From: a virus
DNA length: 38,754 nucleotides
Virus record (IMG/VR): IMGVR_UViG_3300044638_005184
Span: 1-38,754 of that record
Direction: 5' to 3' (one strand)
The notes beneath the pieces are model-generated. The model saw only the letters and a program-made list of their open reading frames with translations. It did not search any database and had not been told where the DNA came from. Shown piece by piece: positions 774 to 35,529 of this stretch (positions are counted from its first letter, which is position 1; each line of letters opens with the position of its first letter). A program made the translations under genes and the position numbers.

Positions 774-2620
774 TCGACATAGCCCAGCCGGCTGTCGAGA
801 TCCTGACCGGGGAGACGCCCACGCCGTCTGCCTGGGCCGGCACAGCGGTATTGCCGGATGGCGATCGGAAGGGGCAGACCTACGACCCGCAGCTGCACCC
901 GCCCCAGGCTGCGATATGGGCGGCATGTGATGCTGGGGCGTCTCATATCACCATCGTCAAGCCGGTGCAGGATGGCGGATCGCTCATTGCATTCCTGCTG
1001 ATGCTGCATCGTGTGTGTGCATTGGGTCAGACTGCCATCATGGCGTACCCCACGCTGACCGCAGCCCGGGACGCCTGGACCAAAAAGCTCGCCCCGATCC
1101 TGGGCGCCATCGACATGCTACCCAAGCGTGGGGGCGGATCCTCTGGCGGCGCATCGTCCATCTTCCAGATACCTGGCGGCGGGTCGATCATCATCCGCAG
1201 CGCAGGCGGCCGGCACGAATCGGGGCAGGCATCGGCAACTGGTGACGTCTTGATCCCTGACGAGGTAGACGACTGGCCAGACATGCGCCGGGTCAAGCTC
1301 ATTGAACAGCGCATTACCAAGTCCCAGGACCCGCTGGTTGTCTTTATCAGCACAGTCAAGCGGGATGGGGAAGGCAAGGATGCCAGCCACATCCTGCGCA
1401 TGTACGAGGAAGGAACGCAGACCCGGCTGGAATACCCCTGCCCACACTGTGGCAAGTTTCAGACCTTGGAATGGGAGCGGGTCAACCAAGAGACTGCACA
1501 GATTGCATGCGAGGGATGCGGCGTTTTGATGTCGGACGGCGAACGGTTGGCGATGCTGCCCCATTGGCGCCGGGTGGACAAGACCAAATCCGGTCAGTTT
1601 TCCATCATGTGGACGGCGCTAGACAGCCCATTCCCCATTGTCATCAACGGCAAGAAACGTCCCATTCTACAAGGGCTGTGCGATGAGTGGCGATATGCCG
1701 AGACGCAGGCGGCCCTTGGCGACCACAGCTTCGCACGGCAGTTCTATCGCGACCGGCTTTGCCGCCCCTATCGGGCGGATCTAAACCTTGACGACGACGG
1801 CCACACGTCCATCCCGACCCGCAATCGCTTGGCAGCCCTGTCAACCCGCAGCCCGTACGCGCTGGACGTGGATCGGTCCGAGCAGGACGGCGACAGCGTC
1901 CACCTATCCCATATCCCTGACTGGTGCGAGCACACAACGGTAGCTGTTGACGTACAGCGCGGAGGCGATAGAGCACCCGGCCGCTTGTATTTTGAGGCAA
2001 TATCACGCGGCAATGGCAAGGGCGCGATCACTGGATACGGGTCCGTGACTGCCTCGCCACAAGGGCGGCAGCCGACCCGGGCGGAACTACATGCGGCCCT
2101 AGACCGGCTGGACGGCATCCTACGCGATTGGAACCCGGCCGCCGCGATCGTTGCCCGTGGCGTCGACGTGGGCGACCGTCAAGACGAGCTATTGCCCTGG
2201 ATCCAGGCGCATCGGGATTGGCGAGCGATCAAGGGAACCGGACCGCTCAAGGCCACAGAGCCAGGGGACAGGCCCGGTTGGCTGTATCTACGGCAACAGG
2301 CCGGCGGTTGGGCGCTGCGGCTAATCGAAACGCGTGGCGCCCTGCGTGTTGTGCATGGCGAATTGCTGACCGAGGCATTGTTGCTGCCGCGCGGTCTGAA
2401 CCGTGAATCCAGCATCATCCGCCACCTATGCGCGTCGGTAGAATTCATGCCTGACCGCTGGTCAGAGAAGCCGCGCGACCGGGTGCACCACCCGGAGTGG
2501 CAGGCGCGCGACGACTTGGGGCAGTGCGCGGCCTATGCTCGTGCGCTGGCCTATGAATGGGAATCACGCCAAGGCCACCACGGCCCCCGCAGAAAATACG
2601 GAGCGATTAAGCCTATATGA
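770..2620 (+). CDS. phage terminase large subunit, lambda GpA family
   Basis: This is the ATPase-nuclease motor that cuts and packages phage DNA. The body matches the GpA family: a degenerate Walker A (TIVKPVQDGGS, about residues 61-71 from TTG 770), a Walker B-like LIPDEVDDW with D164-E165, a zinc ribbon (CPHCG at 224-228 and CEGCG at 247-251) as in GpA, and a C-terminal region with Asp-rich nuclease-type segments. I chose TTG 770 (616 aa) because it overlaps the stop of the preceding small frame (TTGA), has AAGG upstream, and the residues added by the alternative ATG 668 (650 aa) look out of frame. The family length is about 640 aa. The next gene overlaps by ATGA. Confidence 0.9.
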   Translation: MIDIAQPAVEILTGETPTPSAWAGTAVLPDGDRKGQTYDPQLHPPQAAIWAACDAGASHITIVKPVQDGGSLIAFLLMLHRVCALGQTAIMAYPTLTAARDAWTKKLAPILGAIDMLPKRGGGSSGGASSIFQIPGGGSIIIRSAGGRHESGQASATGDVLIPDEVDDWPDMRRVKLIEQRITKSQDPLVVFISTVKRDGEGKDASHILRMYEEGTQTRLEYPCPHCGKFQTLEWERVNQETAQIACEGCGVLMSDGERLAMLPHWRRVDKTKSGQFSIMWTALDSPFPIVINGKKRPILQGLCDEWRYAETQAALGDHSFARQFYRDRLCRPYRADLNLDDDGHTSIPTRNRLAALSTRSPYALDVDRSEQDGDSVHLSHIPDWCEHTTVAVDVQRGGDRAPGRLYFEAISRGNGKGAITGYGSVTASPQGRQPTRAELHAALDRLDGILRDWNPAAAIVARGVDVGDRQDELLPWIQAHRDWRAIKGTGPLKATEPGDRPGWLYLRQQAGGWALRLIETRGALRVVHGELLTEALLLPRGLNRESSIIRHLCASVEFMPDRWSEKPRDRVHHPEWQARDDLGQCAAYARALAYEWESRQGHHGPRRKYGAIKPI

Positions 2621-3942
2621 TCATCAACGTCACCAAAGACGGGCCGACCGTGGAGGACGTCCGCGCTGCGCATTTCCGCGATGCATCCATGATTGCCACC
2701 ATGCCATCGGTCACGGTGACCGCTGACCCTGGATGTGAGCGTGAGCGGGACGCCATGGAGGCGTCGCTGGCCGAAATGATGCTAGAAATTGGCAACAGCA
2801 GCGGAGATAACATCACAGGACTGCATCACGCCCTGATCAACCCGCATTCATGCGAGCCCAAGCAGGATGCGCTGGCCGGCATCGCCGCCGGCGGGGAAGT
2901 GATCTGTCTGGCATCCGGCCCATCCGCGCACGACCTTATGCCATGGGTGCGCGAGCGGCACGACATGGGCGCCATCGTCGTCTGCGCTGATTCCATTTAC
3001 CGGGGCGCGGTAGCGGCTGGAATTGCCCCGGATTTCGTGTGCGTCTTGGAACGCGACGCGCGCATGGCGGACATGGTGCCGGCCGATCTGTCGCCCACAT
3101 CGATTCTGGTGTGTCCGCCCGTCGTGCATCCGTCCGTCCCGATCGGATGGCGTGGCCGCCGGGTGTGGGTTTGGCAGACGGCGTCCCTGATGTACCCAGC
3201 CATCGGGCCAGGCATCCCGCGCATCGGCACCGGTCGCAGTGCCGGCACGCTGGCGGCGCAAATTGCGGTGCTGATGAAACCGGCGCGCATCATTCTGGTC
3301 GGTCATGACCTCTGCGAAGTGGGCGGTATCAGCCATGCTGGGGTGGCCGAGCAACTGAGCAGCAGGGCGCACCAAGCGGACCTTGCCAACCCCGGCAACA
3401 CCTACCACCGCCGGGCATCCATGTATTGCACGGATGGCATCATGCGGCCATCCACGATATTCTGGCACGGATGCCTGGCAGATCTCAACGCCATATTTCT
3501 GCGCGCATTCGACCTGTCTATCCCGGTGCTTAATGCGTCGAAGCATGGCGCCCTGATCAAGCATGCGTTCCCATTTGTGTCGGCTCCCAATCCAGTGCCG
3601 GGCACGATCAACCTGGGTCCGACTACGCCTAGCAGGTACGGATCGCTCATGCGGATCGACCTGGAGGACGAATGCTACCGCCAATTGATCAGGATATCCA
3701 AGGCGCCAGAGGAAGGCACCGACTATCAGAGCCTCATCCCAAGCGACGATCATCCGGTCATTCACCTGATCAACCATTGCATAGCCCTCGACCTGATGGC
3801 GGCCAGCCTGCGCGCGCACCTGGACGCCGCGACTGGATGCGGCGAGGAACGGACCCGGCGGCGCACTTATGCGCTCCTGCGTCGCCGGCTGATTGAGAGC
3901 CTGCGCGCCACCATCGGCGCCATGCGCTGGGGGTTCAAGTGA
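2617..3942 (+). CDS. DUF115 / MptE-like (Maf glycosyltransferase-type) protein
   Basis: This 441-aa protein has a Rossmann-like core characteristic of DUF115 (6-hydroxymethylpterin pyrophosphokinase MptE-like and motility accessory factor glycosyltransferases). Visible landmarks are ICLASGPSAHD (about 96-106), VVCADS (121-126), GIAPDFVCVLERD (135-147), GTGRSAGTLAAQ (204-215) and IILVGHDLC (225-233). DUF115 proteins act either on pterins or, as Maf proteins, transfer nonulosonic acids onto surface proteins. Which applies here cannot be read from the sequence. The first 90 residues and the last 150 are unassigned. The gene is locked into the packaging operon by ATGA (start) and GTGA (end) overlaps, arguing for a role during phage production such as modifying virion protein or DNA. 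Confidence 0.7.
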   Translation: MIINVTKDGPTVEDVRAAHFRDASMIATMPSVTVTADPGCERERDAMEASLAEMMLEIGNSSGDNITGLHHALINPHSCEPKQDALAGIAAGGEVICLASGPSAHDLMPWVRERHDMGAIVVCADSIYRGAVAAGIAPDFVCVLERDARMADMVPADLSPTSILVCPPVVHPSVPIGWRGRRVWVWQTASLMYPAIGPGIPRIGTGRSAGTLAAQIAVLMKPARIILVGHDLCEVGGISHAGVAEQLSSRAHQADLANPGNTYHRRASMYCTDGIMRPSTIFWHGCLADLNAIFLRAFDLSIPVLNASKHGALIKHAFPFVSAPNPVPGTINLGPTTPSRYGSLMRIDLEDECYRQLIRISKAPEEGTDYQSLIPSDDHPVIHLINHCIALDLMAASLRAHLDAATGCGEERTRRRTYALLRRRLIESLRATIGAMRWGFK

Positions 3943-26054: not shown

Positions 26055-27071
26055 ATGGGTAGGATATTTTCTGTACGCATCAACATCGACAGCATGCTGG
26101 CAGAGCTTGATGCTCTGGACAACGATCCTCAATTGACGGTTGAATACATCCAAGGCTTCCGCACCGGGTGCCGTGGGGGTCAGCAGCGTGACGGATGGAG
26201 CGCCACCAAACTGGCCGGGTACACGCTTGGTGCCATGGCATACATGGAGGCGCAGGGCTTTTCCAAGCAGCAGGCCGAAAAAGCATCAAAAATGCACGCC
26301 AAGCGTTCCAGTCGTTGCGCTGATATGCCACGGCATGTGCCACGGCATATGCCGGAAGGTATGCCGGAAGCATGCCATATCGAACAATCGAATAATCGAA
26401 TAATCGAAACAACCAATGATCGGCCCGTCTTGGTGACACCTCCAGAAATCCAGCGCCGAGAAACCAGCGCCGGGAATCCAGCGCCAGAAATCCAGCGGTC
26501 AGGATCTGATCAGTTTGATATCACTAGTGGGCCTATAAGAACCCAAGCCCCACCACCGGACGCAGACGGGTGGGACGAGTTCCAGACCCCCCGGAAGCTC
26601 GCCGCACTTGGCGCGCAGGGTATCGGTTCTGCGACTGGCCGCGCCGGGTGGCAAGGCGTGGTTGATCGTTGCGGCTTGGTACAGGTGTTGGAAGCCTTGG
26701 CCAAGCAGCCAGCCGGGAAGCGTTGGGCGCCTGACATCGAATCCGCCTGCGGGGTGCGGGTCGACCCGACTGCGCCAGCAACCGCTGACCAATTTATTGC
26801 GCTGGCCAAGCACATTAAGCAAGGGTTTGCGTGCTTGAAGTACGTTCCTATCGACGCCATGACGAAACACCTACCAAGAATTGATTACGCTTCGCTTGTG
26901 GATCGCTTGCGGCGCGACATGGCTGCCGGTGCTGACGGATGGGACGCACAGGACTGGACAGACGCCTGCGAAGGCCGCAAGAGCGCGTATGGCGGTTGGG
27001 AATTGCGCCCGCTGCCCACCGCACAGCCCATGACTCAGGAACAAGTAAACACCCTCTTGGAGAAACCATGA
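26055..27071 (+). CDS. replication initiator-like protein with internal iterons
   Basis: This 338-aa protein starts at ATG 26055 (ATG 26091 is an alternative). The N-terminal part is helical (VRINIDSMLAELDALD, LAGYTLGAMAYMEAQGFS), then a long unstructured linker (about residues 85-170). A C-terminal helical domain follows (GWDEFQTPRKLAALG, AGWQGVVDRCGLVQVLEAL, SLVDRLRRDMAAGADGW). Inside the linker the DNA carries three blocks of tandem repeats whose periods (12, 8 and 14 bp) include two not divisible by three, so they act at DNA level. An initiator gene carrying its own origin iterons is the lambda O arrangement; no direct homology to O is seen. The next gene is ATGA-coupled. Confidence 0.5.
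   Translation: MGRIFSVRINIDSMLAELDALDNDPQLTVEYIQGFRTGCRGGQQRDGWSATKLAGYTLGAMAYMEAQGFSKQQAEKASKMHAKRSSRCADMPRHVPRHMPEGMPEACHIEQSNNRIIETTNDRPVLVTPPEIQRRETSAGNPAPEIQRSGSDQFDITSGPIRTQAPPPDADGWDEFQTPRKLAALGAQGIGSATGRAGWQGVVDRCGLVQVLEALAKQPAGKRWAPDIESACGVRVDPTAPATADQFIALAKHIKQGFACLKYVPIDAMTKHLPRIDYASLVDRLRRDMAAGADGWDAQDWTDACEGRKSAYGGWELRPLPTAQPMTQEQVNTLLEKP
26325..26499 (+). repeat. origin-like iterons inside the replication gene
   Basis: Block 1 (26325-26376): 12-bp units ATGCCACGGCAT, GTGCCACGGCAT, ATGCCGGAAGGT, ATGCCGGAAGCA. Block 2 (26381-26412): 8-bp units CGAACAAT, CGAATAAT, CGAATAAT, CGAAACAA, AT-rich. Block 3 (26444-26499): four contiguous 14-bp units AGAAATCCAGCGCC, GAGAAACCAGCGCC, GGGAATCCAGCGCC, AGAAATCCAGCGGT. 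An AT-richer stretch with GATCTGATCAG and TTTGATATCA follows. The repeats are directly visible; origin function is inferred from the lambda ori arrangement. Confidence 0.65.
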
Positions 27072-27691
27072 CAACCACCACCGACCCACCCAAAGAAATC
27101 GGCCCCGCATGGCCCAAGGGATCCATGGCGCTAGGCTGCGCACTCCCGTACTACGAGGGCGGCCAGTACCACCCCGGCCGGTTCTGGACCAAGGACCGGG
27201 CGCACAGGCTGGATGTCTGGTGGGGTAGACCTCTCTTGGCCTGCGCTATAAAGGATATTTTAATTTCTGACGCGACAAAGCGCACAAATGCTGCCCTGGG
27301 ATGGATCCTGGCCCGTGACCGCGCAGAATTAATATCTGACAGCGTGGGCAACGTGGACCCGGAAGCATGCAAGCGGCACATGGCGGCGGTACTGGAACGG
27401 CGCGCGGCCACCCATGCCCAGCGTGGGGAGGCTGACCGCTTGGCCACCCGTTGGGGCGAGGCCGCTGCCCGGTTGGCGCACAACCTTGGCATGGCCCAGG
27501 TGACGCCTGCCGACTCCACGTACGTCATGGCACGCCTGTCGTCGCTAGCCCATCTAGACCGGGACGGACTGCTACCACGGTGCTTGACCATGCCGCCCGA
27601 CTTCCAACCGCCGCATGGATACTCTGAGCGTGCGGAGCGTGCTGCCCGGTTGACCTCTGCCCCGTCTGCAAGTGAGGACGTTTTCGGATGA
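27068..27691 (+). CDS. 207-aa replication-region protein
   Basis: It starts at ATG 27068 (ATGA overlap with the initiator-like gene). It occupies the place of lambda P or a helicase loader, but no Walker motifs are present. Visible features are a WWGRPLLACAIKDILISD segment, a long charged helix (PEACKRHMAAVLERRAATH, RLATRWGEAAARLAHNLG) and a Pro-rich end. It may be a loader adaptor or a replication accessory; the family is not recognised. Confidence 0.5.
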   Translation: MTTTTDPPKEIGPAWPKGSMALGCALPYYEGGQYHPGRFWTKDRAHRLDVWWGRPLLACAIKDILISDATKRTNAALGWILARDRAELISDSVGNVDPEACKRHMAAVLERRAATHAQRGEADRLATRWGEAAARLAHNLGMAQVTPADSTYVMARLSSLAHLDRDGLLPRCLTMPPDFQPPHGYSERAERAARLTSAPSASEDVFG

Positions 27692-28199: not shown

Positions 28200-28223
28200 C
28201 TTCCCTTGCGCAAGGGATACATG
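28196..28223 (+). promoter_or_regulatory. promoter with embedded palindromic operator
   Basis: TTGACT (28196-28201) is followed by the perfect 14-bp palindrome CCCTTGCGCAAGGG (28203-28216) within the spacer, and TACATG (28218-28223) as a weak -10. A repressor bound here would block the polymerase. The same palindrome, perfect or nearly so, recurs at 30194, 30679 and 34303. It drives the LRR gene through a 100-nt leader that holds a possible 16-codon leader peptide (ATG 28243, preceded by AAGGA). Confidence 0.6.
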
Positions 28224-28322: not shown

Positions 28323-29039
28323 ATGGCCATTACCAGCCTCTCCGACCTCACTCCCGATCAACTTTCTGGAAAGGAAAAGATCAATGACGACCTGGACCTC
28401 CGCGGCCTGACGACGCTGCCGGAGGGCGTGTCGCTGACGGCCGGTGGATCCCTGTACCTCAGCGGCCTGACGACGCTGCCGGAGGGCGTGTCGCTGACGG
28501 CCGGTGGATCCCTGTGCCTCAGCGGCCTGACGACGCTGCCGGAGGGCGTGTCGCTGACGGCCGGTGGATACCTGGACCTCCGCGGCCTGACGGGCAAACG
28601 CCCGAAGGTCAAAAGGCCGCCCGTGCCGCTATGCTGGAACGGCCACATATGGGCCGACAACATATTGGCGCGGGTCATCAGCCAACGCGGTAACGTGTGG
28701 AGAGTGACGATTGTCGGCCAGTCGACGCCGTCGTATCTGGTGACGGACGGCAAGCATTTCGCGCACGGCAAGACGCTCAAGGACGCCAAAGCGGACTTGG
28801 TTTACAAGGTCACGGACCGCAAGCCCGAGCAGTATAAGGGGCTGAACCTCAACAGCGCATTGGACTTCGCGGAGGCCGTGGCGTGCTATCGGTGCGTTAC
28901 CGGGGCATGCGCGATGGGCGTGAAGCATTTTGTCGATTCTACCGGGCAGCGGACAGAAAAGGTCAAGGTGAAAGACATCATCAAGATGACGGTCGGGCAA
29001 TTTGGACATGAGCGGTTTAAGGCGTTCTTTCAGCCATGA
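28323..29039 (+). CDS. leucine-rich-repeat protein with conserved C-terminal domain
   Basis: From ATG 28323 the product has 238 aa. Residues about 22-90 hold three nearly identical 20-residue LRR-type units (LTTLPEGVSLTAGGSLYLSG pattern), as in IpaH/SspH-like LRR arrays. The C-terminal 140 residues form a separate domain: CWNGHIWADNILARVISQ, YLVTDGKHFAHGKTLKDA, VACYRCVTGACAMGVKHF, and VKDIIKMTVGQFGHERFKAF. This domain recurs in phage and plasmid proteins with LRR arrays, as I recall; its function is unknown. The protein may bind a host partner. The longer upstream frame covers the promoter and leader and is unlikely. Confidence 0.7.
   Translation: MAITSLSDLTPDQLSGKEKINDDLDLRGLTTLPEGVSLTAGGSLYLSGLTTLPEGVSLTAGGSLCLSGLTTLPEGVSLTAGGYLDLRGLTGKRPKVKRPPVPLCWNGHIWADNILARVISQRGNVWRVTIVGQSTPSYLVTDGKHFAHGKTLKDAKADLVYKVTDRKPEQYKGLNLNSALDFAEAVACYRCVTGACAMGVKHFVDSTGQRTEKVKVKDIIKMTVGQFGHERFKAFFQP
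28391..28590 (+). repeat. 60-bp tandem repeats in the LRR gene
   Basis: The unit runs from GCCTGACGACGCTGCCGGAG to GGTGGATCCCTG(T/G)(A/G)CCTC and repeats with exact 60-bp period three times plus partial flanking copies. The copies differ at only a few positions, pointing to recent expansion; the unit number is likely to vary between isolates. Confidence 0.9.
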
Positions 29040-29939: not shown

Positions 29940-30118
29940 AAATCCATTACAGCACCTTTAAGACCACGGCCGACGCCACCGCATCCGGTTGGACGCCTGT
30001 CCGTACCTGCGCGCAGTCCGGCCGCTGTCTAGCGTGGCAGCCGCGAGCGGATAGGTTGCCGCCGCTGCGCCGGATGATCGCCAACCCACAAGGCGAGCCG
30101 ACTGTCGGCCCGCTATGA
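29936..30118 (+). CDS. 60-aa hypothetical protein
   Basis: It starts at TTG 29936 (TTGA overlap) and ends at TGA 30116-30118 inside the left copy of the 183-bp repeat, so its last residues (EPTVGPL) are encoded by the repeat. The N-terminal KIHYSTFKTTADATASGWT is plausible protein. No family is recognised. Confidence 0.4.
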   Translation: MKIHYSTFKTTADATASGWTPVRTCAQSGRCLAWQPRADRLPPLRRMIANPQGEPTVGPL

Positions 30119-30276
30119 ACTGGAATGCGGAGAGGATGAGGACGACGAAGAGGAAGCGGAAAAAGCCTAGCATATTTACCATTGTCAACTTTCCCCTTGC
30201 GCATGGGCAACGGGGCGTGTAGGGTGCAGCCATCGCCGGCAACAACCAAGCCCGGCGACCGGAGACACCGACCATG
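30094..30276 (+). repeat. 183-bp perfect direct repeat, left copy
   Basis: 30094-30276 is identical to 30579-30761 (offset 485). It carries the coding tail of an acidic small protein (CGEDEDDEEEAEKA), a promoter, a palindrome half-variant and the leader up to and including an ATG. In this copy the ATG opens the AlpA-like gene. Confidence 0.9.
30194..30225 (+). promoter_or_regulatory. duplicated promoter with operator variant, copy 1
   Basis: TTGCGC (30197-30202), a 17-nt spacer and TAGGGT (30220-30225). CCCTTGCGCATGGG (30194-30207), one base from the perfect palindrome at 28203, overlaps the -35 region. It drives the HTH gene at 30274. Confidence 0.55.
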
Positions 30277-30501
30277 CAGAGCACCCCACAAACGCCCGAA
30301 ACCGTCCCGGGGATACTGGACGACACCTACCACCCCGGCGCGACATACGAAGAGCGCCTGGACCTTTGCGACGGTTTCTTCCGCGTCATGAGGAACCGCC
30401 GGAAGGGTCCCAAGTTTATCCGGATCGGTTCGGCCGTCCGATATGGCGAGCGCGCCGTTGCTGAATGGCTGGCCGAACAGCAGACGGGCAGTGCCCAATG
30501 A
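30274..30501 (+). CDS. AlpA/Xis-like helix-turn-helix protein
   Basis: 75 aa, start ATG 30274 with GGAG 9 nt upstream. The core RLDLCDGFFRVMRNRRKGPKF, IRIGSAVRYGERAVAEWLAEQ matches excisionase/AlpA-type MerR-like winged HTH proteins (GPPFIRLGRRVRYRRSDLDAWL pattern). These bind DNA as excisionases or transcription activators. No integrase was seen in this window, so a regulator is as likely as an excisionase. Confidence 0.7.
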   Translation: MQSTPQTPETVPGILDDTYHPGATYEERLDLCDGFFRVMRNRRKGPKFIRIGSAVRYGERAVAEWLAEQQTGSAQ

Positions 30502-30541: not shown

Positions 30542-30655
30542 ATGTCGCAGGATATTGGCGATGGTGCTCTTGCCGTCACGAGCCGACTGTCGGCCCGCTA
30601 TGAACTGGAATGCGGAGAGGATGAGGACGACGAAGAGGAAGCGGAAAAAGCCTAG
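30542..30655 (+). CDS. 37-aa acidic protein
   Basis: ATG 30542 to TAG 30653-30655. The C-terminus (ECGEDEDDEEEAEKA) is extremely acidic, and its codons vary at third positions, as in a real gene. In the left repeat copy the same tail lacks a start because a stop lies just upstream. Overlapping frame 30498-30707 is Arg-rich and less credible. Could mimic DNA or bind a basic partner; unproven. Confidence 0.4.
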   Translation: MSQDIGDGALAVTSRLSARYELECGEDEDDEEEAEKA

Positions 30656-30761
30656 CATATTTACCATTGTCAACTTTCCCCTTGCGCATGGGCAACGGGG
30701 CGTGTAGGGTGCAGCCATCGCCGGCAACAACCAAGCCCGGCGACCGGAGACACCGACCATG
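30579..30761 (+). repeat. 183-bp perfect direct repeat, right copy
   Basis: Identical to 30094-30276. Here its terminal ATG opens the unrelated gene at 30759. Recombination between the copies would delete 485 bp including the HTH gene. Confidence 0.9.
30679..30710 (+). promoter_or_regulatory. duplicated promoter with operator variant, copy 2
   Basis: TTGCGC (30682-30687), a 17-nt spacer and TAGGGT (30705-30710), with CCCTTGCGCATGGG at 30679-30692. Sequence is identical to copy 1; it drives the gene at 30759. Confidence 0.55.
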
Positions 30762-32127: not shown

Positions 32128-32248
32128 GCATAGACAGATTATATCGCTCACGCCGGCCCAGCGAAAGTGGCTGGTATCTCAAGCTGCCAAGTATGGCATA
32201 TCAATAACAGAGGTTATTCGGCGCATGCTGGATAAAGCGATGTCATGA
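32126..32248 (+). CDS. 40-aa ribbon-helix-helix (CopG-like) regulator
   Basis: ATG 32126 to TGA 32246-32248. It is a complete RHH unit: strand QIISLTP, helix QRKWLVSQAAKYG, turn, helix ISITEVIRRMLDKAM. Such proteins dimerise and bind DNA through paired strands. The inverted repeat at its promoter suggests autoregulation. It is ATGA-coupled to the HNH gene, and both are AT-richer than their neighbours. Confidence 0.75.
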   Translation: MHRQIISLTPAQRKWLVSQAAKYGISITEVIRRMLDKAMS

Positions 32249-33105
32249 CGAAAGCCTCTTGGAGTTTTGAGCGTAGAATACAAGGAAGAATCCGTCACAC
32301 ACCCAGCGGATGCTGGGAGTGGTTAGGGTCTAAAATCAGCGGAAAGCAAAACGGATATGGATATATTTGTGTCAATTCTAGAGACTTGCTAGCGCACAGA
32401 TACATTTACGCCAACATGCGCGGAGCAATACCGCCAGGACTGGACTTGGATCATTTATGCCGCAATCGGTCATGTGTCAACCCGGATCATTTAGAACCAG
32501 TAACCAGATCGGAAAATTGCCGTAGAAGCCCATTGATGGGACGGTTTCATAGCCAAAAAACGCATTGTCCGGCTGGGCATGCTTATTCCGGCGATAATCT
32601 ATATATTTCAAAAAAAGGCAGACAATGCAGAGCGTGTGGCAGACAACATGCCCGTCAACGTAGACAAAACGATTCCATTGCCGCATTTTTCAAAACACCA
32701 CCCAGGAATACAATCATGAACCTCTCAGACCTTTCATCCAGCCAGTACCTTGCCAGCGATGACTACACGGTCGGGCAAATCCTGCCCGTGGTGGAAATCG
32801 CCCGCATCGAAATGGCCGATGTCCCCGTCCCCAACAGCACCAAGAAGAACAGCAAGGCTGTTGCTTGGTTCAAGGGCGCGACCAAGGGCTGGTGCATCAA
32901 CAAGACCGTGGCCCGGCAGATTGCCAAGGTCATTGGAGAAACCAAGAATATCGACAAGACATGGGTCGGGGCCAAGATCCAACTTGTTGTGGTCGGTGAT
33001 GTGCGCCGGCCCGATGGCACGCGGGGCAATGCCTTCCGCCTGCACCAAGCCTGGGCCGCCGACAAGCCCGCAACCACCACCCCGGCCGATCCGGCCAAAG
33101 GATAA
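32245..33105 (+). CDS. HNH homing endonuclease fused in frame to a phage protein
   Basis: 286 aa. Residues 1-about 155 are an HNH_3-type endonuclease: GCWEWLG, GYGYICVNSRDLLAHRYIY, then D69-H70 with C72, C77, N79, H82 (DHLCRNRSCVNPDHLE), and a second zinc site (C108, H112, C128, C131). This part has AT-rich codons (ATA, AGA) unlike the rest. Residues 158-286 are an older phage protein (YTVGQILPVVEIARIEMADV, WFKGATKGWCINKTVARQI, WVGAKIQLVVVGDVRR, NAFRLHQAW) of a family commonly placed beside recombination genes. That part keeps its own start, ATG 32716 with AGGAA 7 nt upstream, and is probably also made alone (129 aa). Confidence 0.75.
   Translation: MTKASWSFERRIQGRIRHTPSGCWEWLGSKISGKQNGYGYICVNSRDLLAHRYIYANMRGAIPPGLDLDHLCRNRSCVNPDHLEPVTRSENCRRSPLMGRFHSQKTHCPAGHAYSGDNLYISKKGRQCRACGRQHARQRRQNDSIAAFFKTPPRNTIMNLSDLSSSQYLASDDYTVGQILPVVEIARIEMADVPVPNSTKKNSKAVAWFKGATKGWCINKTVARQIAKVIGETKNIDKTWVGAKIQLVVVGDVRRPDGTRGNAFRLHQAWAADKPATTTPADPAKG
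32704..32718 (+). promoter_or_regulatory. internal ribosome site and start within the HNH fusion
   Basis: AGGAA (32704-32708), a 7-nt gap and ATG (32716-32718) begin the conserved phage protein. A homing endonuclease inserted upstream in frame without its own stop would still leave this start usable. Confidence 0.6.
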
Positions 33106-34978: not shown

Positions 34979-35529
34979 CCGAGCAATCCGACCCCGCCCT
35001 GGACCGCTGCGGGCGGCCAGACCATGCCGCCACCGACCCCGGTCACCCCGACCGCACCGCCCGAGACGCCGCGCGGGTGCGGGATGGGCGGGTGCCAATC
35101 CAACCAACCACAACAGCCAGAAAGGCTACCATGCGCACCATTACCGACCACATCATCAACCCGGCCAACGGCAAGTTGACCATCACCGTCACCGACGAGC
35201 CGGGAGCCGGCGGTGCGAGCCACCGCTATGTGGTCGCAGGGTTCAATACCGGCAGCAACCCCAGCGCCAATCACCTGTTTCCGCACGGCGTCACGGATTG
35301 CGAAATTCTGTTTCAGAACGGCCCGATCAACGAGAATGGCGTCAACGGCCTGACCCAGGAAGTTCTGTTGGCCATCGTCGTTGACCGCCTGCGTTCATTC
35401 CAGGCCGGCCCGTACGCCTGCCGCGAGAACGCCCTGGCGCTGACCAAGATCGAGGAAGCCCAGCATTGGCTCCAGCAACGCACGCTGGCCCGGATGCGGC
35501 GCGGCGTCGAAGGGACGCACACCAAATGA
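34975..35529 (+). CDS. Tad1-type signal-sponge (anti-Thoeris/anti-CBASS) candidate
   Basis: From ATG 34975 (ATGA overlap) the frame has 184 aa. The recognised domain starts at ATG 35131 (SD-like AAAGG, 6 nt), giving 132 aa, the size expected for Tad1. The layout is N-terminal beta strands (SHRYVVAGFNTGSNP), a loop DCEILFQNGPINENGVNG, and a helical hairpin with FQAGPYACRENALALTKIEE and HWLQQRTLARMRRGVEGTH. In Tad1/Acb2-hairpin proteins such a region forms a hexamer that sequesters Thoeris/CBASS second messengers. F142, N152 and R169 match recalled ligand-binding positions. The first 52 residues are Pro/Arg/Asp-rich and may not be part of the protein. Confidence 0.7.
   Translation: MTEQSDPALDRCGRPDHAATDPGHPDRTARDAARVRDGRVPIQPTTTARKATMRTITDHIINPANGKLTITVTDEPGAGGASHRYVVAGFNTGSNPSANHLFPHGVTDCEILFQNGPINENGVNGLTQEVLLAIVVDRLRSFQAGPYACRENALALTKIEEAQHWLQQRTLARMRRGVEGTHTK

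Follow-up and report, generated by a model that had tools for sequence, protein, structure and literature searches.

The window that we analysed, a linear metagenomic virus record of 38.7 kb from IMG/VR, carries packaging and structural genes up to ~25.9 kb and an early module thereafter. The first early gene (26055-27071, plus strand) begins with an ATG at 26055 and encodes a 338-aa protein, the putative replication initiator of the phage. Its stop codon is overlapped by the start of the next gene (ATGA; 27068-27691, plus strand), which encodes a 207-aa protein and occupies the position of lambda P and P22 gene 12. The 207-aa product had no match in Pfam, PHROG or NCBIfam at the thresholds used, and by these profiles the gene is neither a P-like nor a DnaB-helicase-like partner; from its position, the product is perhaps a helicase loader. 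Further along the early module are genes for a DUF3310 protein (29691), a RecE-like exonuclease (31257; phrog_412, 1e-34), SSB (33109; phrog_44, 2e-30) and RusA (36846; 1e-35). None of the contig genes scanned was recognisable as a polymerase, helicase or primase gene, from which we infer that the phage needs an origin-binding protein and probably borrows the host replisome. Elsewhere in the window, an HNH endonuclease ORF at 32245-33105 continues in frame into a second protein (ATG 32716; phrog_21613) and is perhaps a fusion remaining from an HNH insertion. The protein encoded at 35131-35529 strongly matches the unknown family phrog_2428 and, below the profile cut-off, also resembles the Acb2/Tad1 hairpin domain (PF24729, E 5.5e-5); it is a possible anti-defence protein. 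An MptE-like domain protein (PF01973, E 6e-21) is encoded at 2617-3942 with terminase and portal genes on either side, an unusual gene for a packaging module.

Three types of tandem array are packed into 180 bp in the middle of the 338-aa gene, all listed here on the plus strand. The first consists of four 12-bp units at 26324-26371 (TATGCCACGGCA, TGTGCCACGGCA, TATGCCGGAAGG and TATGCCGGAAGC), the first two of which are inverted repeats containing the dyad TGCCACGGCA; we propose that these are initiator-binding iterons. The second, a putative DNA unwinding element, consists of four AT-rich 8-bp units, ATCGAA(T/C)A, at 26379-26410. The third is a 14-bp array at 26437-26506 with the consensus CAGCGCCAGGAATC, which we propose as a second protein-binding array. 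Tandem Repeats Finder (TRF) called the 14-bp repeat with 3.8 copies (26444-26497), the 8-bp repeat with 3.8 copies (26379-26408) and the 12-bp repeat as 2.6 plus 1.9 copies (26323-26370), and a second repeat finder also reported the arrays. An earlier note on this DNA had described four contiguous 14-bp units at 26444-26499, preceded by 12-bp and AT-rich 8-bp tandem units. The succession of arrays was borne out by TRF and by a period scan. The 14-bp array is likewise present, but only three of its four to five units are strong (26451-26492), with a single weaker copy flanking them on each side. An isolated dyad, TGCCATGGCA (26231-26240), shares its motif with the first two 12-bp units and sits 95 bp upstream of the dyads in that array. 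The motif TGCCRYGGCA occurs three times in the window (26231, 26326 and 26338), always within the 338-aa gene; 0.64 occurrences are expected per window and a count of 3 was reached in 2 of 100 shuffles. Copies of the 14-mer dispersed elsewhere in the window were not above chance, and an Rfam search gave no match. There was no exact DnaA box, one-mismatch sites were fewer than expected by chance, and, as a point against an origin here, no sigma-70-like promoter was found upstream.

The repeat arrays are real and not a product of chance. When periods of 5 to 40 were scanned across the 38.7 kb, the window-wide best stretch for each of the periods 8, 12 and 14 fell in the 338-aa gene, and the maximum TRF score among 100 second-order Markov resamplings of the window was 76, compared to the observed 80. 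The protein was also recoded synonymously in 3000 trials that followed the codon usage of the window, a control that rules out a peptide cause but does not address slippage. Recoded genes matched the observed periodicity in 2/3000 cases for 14 bp, 0/3000 for 8 bp and 15/3000 for 12 bp. The copies of the 14-bp unit start in codon phases 1,0,2,1,0 and encode QRRET, SAGN and APEI, while those of the 8-bp unit start in phases 0,2,1,0 and encode IEQ, SNN, RII and IET. Because both units are read in all three frames, the repeat is in the DNA and not in the peptide. The 12-bp array stays in phase and encodes MPRH-VPRH-MPEG-MPEA; its period is a multiple of three and a peptide repeat is therefore also possible, for this array alone. 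The earlier note was thus right to regard the non-triplet repeats as DNA repeats, but went too far in reading selection from them, as such periods do not by themselves establish it.

Repeats of this kind could instead be neutral minisatellites, generated by replication slippage in a tolerant, disordered linker and without origin function, and the linker is indeed low-complexity. However, a single extra 8- or 14-bp unit shifts the frame, such that these arrays can grow by three units only. With four clear units, the 8-bp array is consistent with such growth (one plus three); the four to five units of the 14-bp array agree with it less exactly. Tandem repeats are present elsewhere in the phage, for example a 60-bp unit repeated 3.4 times with 95% identity at 28391-28592, and no relatives were found that could display conservation of the repeats described here. 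By contrast, in the 338-aa gene three periods lie side by side, one of them AT-rich, in the order of known origins, and the 8- and 14-bp arrays were reached in 0-2/3000 of the synonymous recodings, a control that does not cover slippage. On balance, we consider a purely neutral origin of the arrays improbable. The 60-bp repeat itself lies within a leucine-rich-repeat-like gene, whose closest phage match is in Tetrasphaera phage TJE1 (43%), and is a recent DNA-level amplification.

Calculation of nearest-neighbour stability placed the weakest 40-bp duplex of the gene on the 8-bp array (starting at 26377), within the top 0.3% of the window for weakness. The same measures were applied to five positive controls: lambda O, P22 18, phi80 15, TP901-1 rep and Tuc2009 orf16. 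For the first three, the annotation places iterons, protein-binding sites or a replication origin within the gene, and the Tuc2009 gene is annotated as "contains origin of replication"; the TP901-1 record does not mark the origin, which lies within rep. All five initiator genes have comparable tandem arrays and/or a weak-duplex tract mid-gene. Lambda, P22, phi80 and TP901-1 all have an iteron array with an AT-rich tract no more than a few dozen bases downstream of it, the two lying at about 0.37-0.60 of the gene compared to 0.26-0.44 here. The z-score of the weakest 40 bp was 2.7 for the 338-aa gene, 3.0 for lambda O, 2.9 for P22 gene 18 and 2.7 for phi80 gene 15; TP901-1 and Tuc2009 have a high AT content throughout, and there the single weakest 40 bp is found further downstream. 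The initiator gene contains the top array of the sequence examined for P22 and for phi80, and Tuc2009 orf16 has a 15-bp array in the corresponding place.

The lambdoid origin, as published, lies midway along O and comprises iterons and an AT-rich tract (PMC7466680), and every lambda iteron is an inverted repeat, with the AT-rich region to the right (PMC6022878). The 338-aa gene resembles lambda O, P22 18 and phi80 15 in being an early gene with repeats and an AT tract near its middle, within a linker between N- and C-terminal parts, and with the next gene overlapping its stop codon. Furthermore, some units are dyads and iteron-type repeats lie 5' of the AT tract. It differs from them in the size of its units (12, 8 and 14 bp, compared to about 18-24 bp) and in having repeats on both sides of the AT tract; in addition, there is no protein sequence similarity to the lambda group, and no P-like or DnaB-like gene was recognised adjoining it. 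Here, as in P22 and TP901-1, the AT tract consists of tandem units. Short tandem units in the linker, and nearby genes for SSB, a recombination protein and RusA, are shared with TP901-1 and Tuc2009, whose initiators are DnaD-like replisome organisers. In TP901-1 rep, a 15-bp array encoding FPDV repeats precedes an AT-rich 7/15-bp array, matching the order and scale seen here; however, TP901-1 has no 14-bp array downstream of its AT tract, and the proteins are not similar.

The earlier note had taken the 14-mers as the iterons of a lambda-like ori. An ori-like cluster in the linker of an early gene is indeed present, but the 14-mers lie on the other side of the AT tract, and the place of iterons, 5' of that tract, is held by the 12-mers. 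Because the controls place iterons before the AT tract and two of the four 12-mers contain dyads, the 12-mers appear to be the better iteron candidates, and the 14-mers, which we retain as a second candidate array, would be an additional array beyond the melting element. The roles could be reversed, with the 14-bp array serving as the main initiator-binding iterons and the 12-bp array being only an MPxx peptide repeat in the linker. The 14-bp array is the strongest and most contiguous (TRF score 80), while the 12-bp array has a period divisible by three and stands out least from the synonymous shuffles (15/3000), and peptide-type 12-bp repeats are known from DUF1376 genes as well. Yet the four controls with separate tracts have their iterons upstream of the AT tract, where the 12-mers are, and, like lambda iterons (PMC6022878), the first two 12-mers are dyads; the motif recurs once more, at 26231-26240. 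We therefore regard the reversed assignment as a credible but somewhat doubtful alternative; it concerns the roles of the arrays within the origin and not the existence of the origin. The DUF1376 (YdaU-type) genes in question, from Alphaproteobacteria prophages (L179, L180 and L181), have 12-bp tandem repeats after the N-terminal domain; unlike the window, the DUF1376 genes that were read have no array of the 8- or 14-bp type. Array density in DUF1376 genes (0.68 vs 0.46 per kb) revealed no clear enrichment, in an illustrative comparison in which the ORF read was not the family gene at 3 of 10 loci.

The 338-aa protein is made up of an N-terminal part (aa 1-88), the repeat-encoded linker (~aa 89-170) and a C-terminal part (aa 173-338). 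Helices are predicted on either side of the unstructured linker, at very low AF2 confidence (pLDDT 38). Run without an alignment, AF2 returned a pLDDT of 38 for the whole protein and 48 for the N-terminal 105 aa, and neither model is interpretable. A DNA-binding fold was neither detected by profiles (Pfam, PHROGs) nor predicted with confidence by AF2. Searches with the protein found no Pfam family at E<1, no match in PHROGs or NCBIfam, and nothing among PDB sequences. Specifically, the winged-helix profile of Phage_rep_O (PF04492) and the DUF1376/YdaU-type profile (PF07120) had no match even at E<1, and a replisome-organiser profile had none in Pfam or PHROGs. BLASTP alignments gave 14.6 bits (E=3.6) with lambda O and 15.8 bits (E=1.5) with TP901-1 Rep, in agreement with the earlier view that the protein has no clear similarity to O. 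Membership of the lambda O family was considered and rejected: the locus has iterons plus an AT tract, but no match to the Phage_rep_O profile and no P- or DnaB-like partner.

Broader searches gave a similar picture. No relative was found by tblastn of the whole protein on phages and plasmids, and the N- and C-terminal parts gave only chance hits on phages. Scans of viral and genome contigs, which detect close relatives only, returned none, and neither did searches of 41 phage records and of some 1,450 alpha- and gammaproteobacterial genomes, these belonging to the classes and orders of genomes reached through terminase hits. One weak genome hit (L190; E 6e-4, 250 genomes searched) proved on inspection to be a low-complexity chance match. 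The terminase-based search for related phages yielded distant matches only (21-34% identity). Viral contigs scanned for a pair of 14-mers contained 5 unrelated chance sites, and those scanned for the 8-mer array contained none. Given the limited reach of the contig scans, this absence of relatives is weak evidence. As judged by sequence, the 338-aa protein is an orphan; with no relative in the collections searched, the earlier suggestion of an unrecognised initiator family is not supported, and the label "family" is premature. A bolder reading makes the protein the first of an initiator family with no relation to O, DnaD-like or DUF1376 proteins, one in which the placement of an origin in its own initiator gene was arrived at independently and two kinds of unit (12-bp dyads and 14-bp direct repeats) flank an AT-rich melting tandem. 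We offer this tentatively and think it rather unlikely.

The GC-skew inflection anticipated at this site was seen only as a coarse change in strand composition: cumulative G minus C falls across the structural genes and ceases falling near 26 kb. Its minimum, however, is a plateau from ~25.6 to 35 kb, with the absolute minimum at 28,366. Circular segmentation, which assumes a circle for this linear record, identified a best G-rich arc extending from a start at 25.6-28.4 kb to 3.3 kb. Skew at third codon positions steps in the same way, from ~-0.1 to -0.3 in the majority of genes between 4.7 and 25.9 kb to values scattered about zero past 26 kb. The change in skew falls where the structural module ends. 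This step would fit bidirectional replication from here, but also two modules of different ancestry.

Direct repeats with dyads would also suit operators and centromeres, and the arrays could accordingly be sites for a repressor or a ParB-like protein and not an origin. We judge this very unlikely, because no parA- or parB-like gene was found among the genes scanned, the arrays lie deep within coding sequence and adjoin an AT tract, and a separate set of palindromes in the early region is more operator-like. These palindromes, CCTTGCGCAAGGG, are exact at 28204 and 34304 and carry one mismatch at 30195 and 30680; several copies adjoin TTGAC-like boxes, and the set is possibly a shared operator/promoter system. 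In the same region, a stretch of ~180 bp is duplicated almost exactly (about 30092-30280 and 30577-30760, about 485 bp apart), each copy preceding a different small gene. Counting against the origin reading, further AT-rich, repeat-bearing stretches exist in the window, for example a cluster of many TTGTCAC/GTGACAA half-sites at 45-162. This cluster lies at the contig end just upstream of the small terminase gene, includes 20-bp copies at 66, 111 and 143 and an 18-bp inverted pair (47-64/69-86), and is a candidate packaging site or operator cluster.

Collectively, these data argue, with a probability of roughly three in four, that the cluster at 26324-26506 is a theta-type replication origin inside the gene of its own initiator. 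The easily melted AT-rich array sits centrally, with one array on each side, within a single early gene, and both the order of the genes and the relative position of the cluster are those of lambda-like and lactococcal temperate phages. The arrangement probably works like lambda ori, without membership of the O family. We infer that the 338-aa protein would bind the repeats; its most likely targets are the 12-bp units with dyads beside the AT tract, perhaps together with the 14-bp units on its far side. Binding would bend or wrap the DNA, the AT-rich 8-bp array would melt, and a helicase loader, perhaps the product of the overlapping 207-aa gene, would recruit the host replicative helicase. 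The flexibility of the encoded linker would make the repeats compatible with coding. This is a known kind of origin, here with an orphan protein and an unusual two-sided layout of arrays. If this interpretation is correct, the design in which an origin lies within its initiator gene would recur with an initiator that is invisible to profile libraries, and non-triplet tandem arrays in a single early gene could provide a sequence-only flag for unannotated phage initiators. Such a compact origin, with its melting element clearly delimited, would also be well suited to studying how initiators open DNA.
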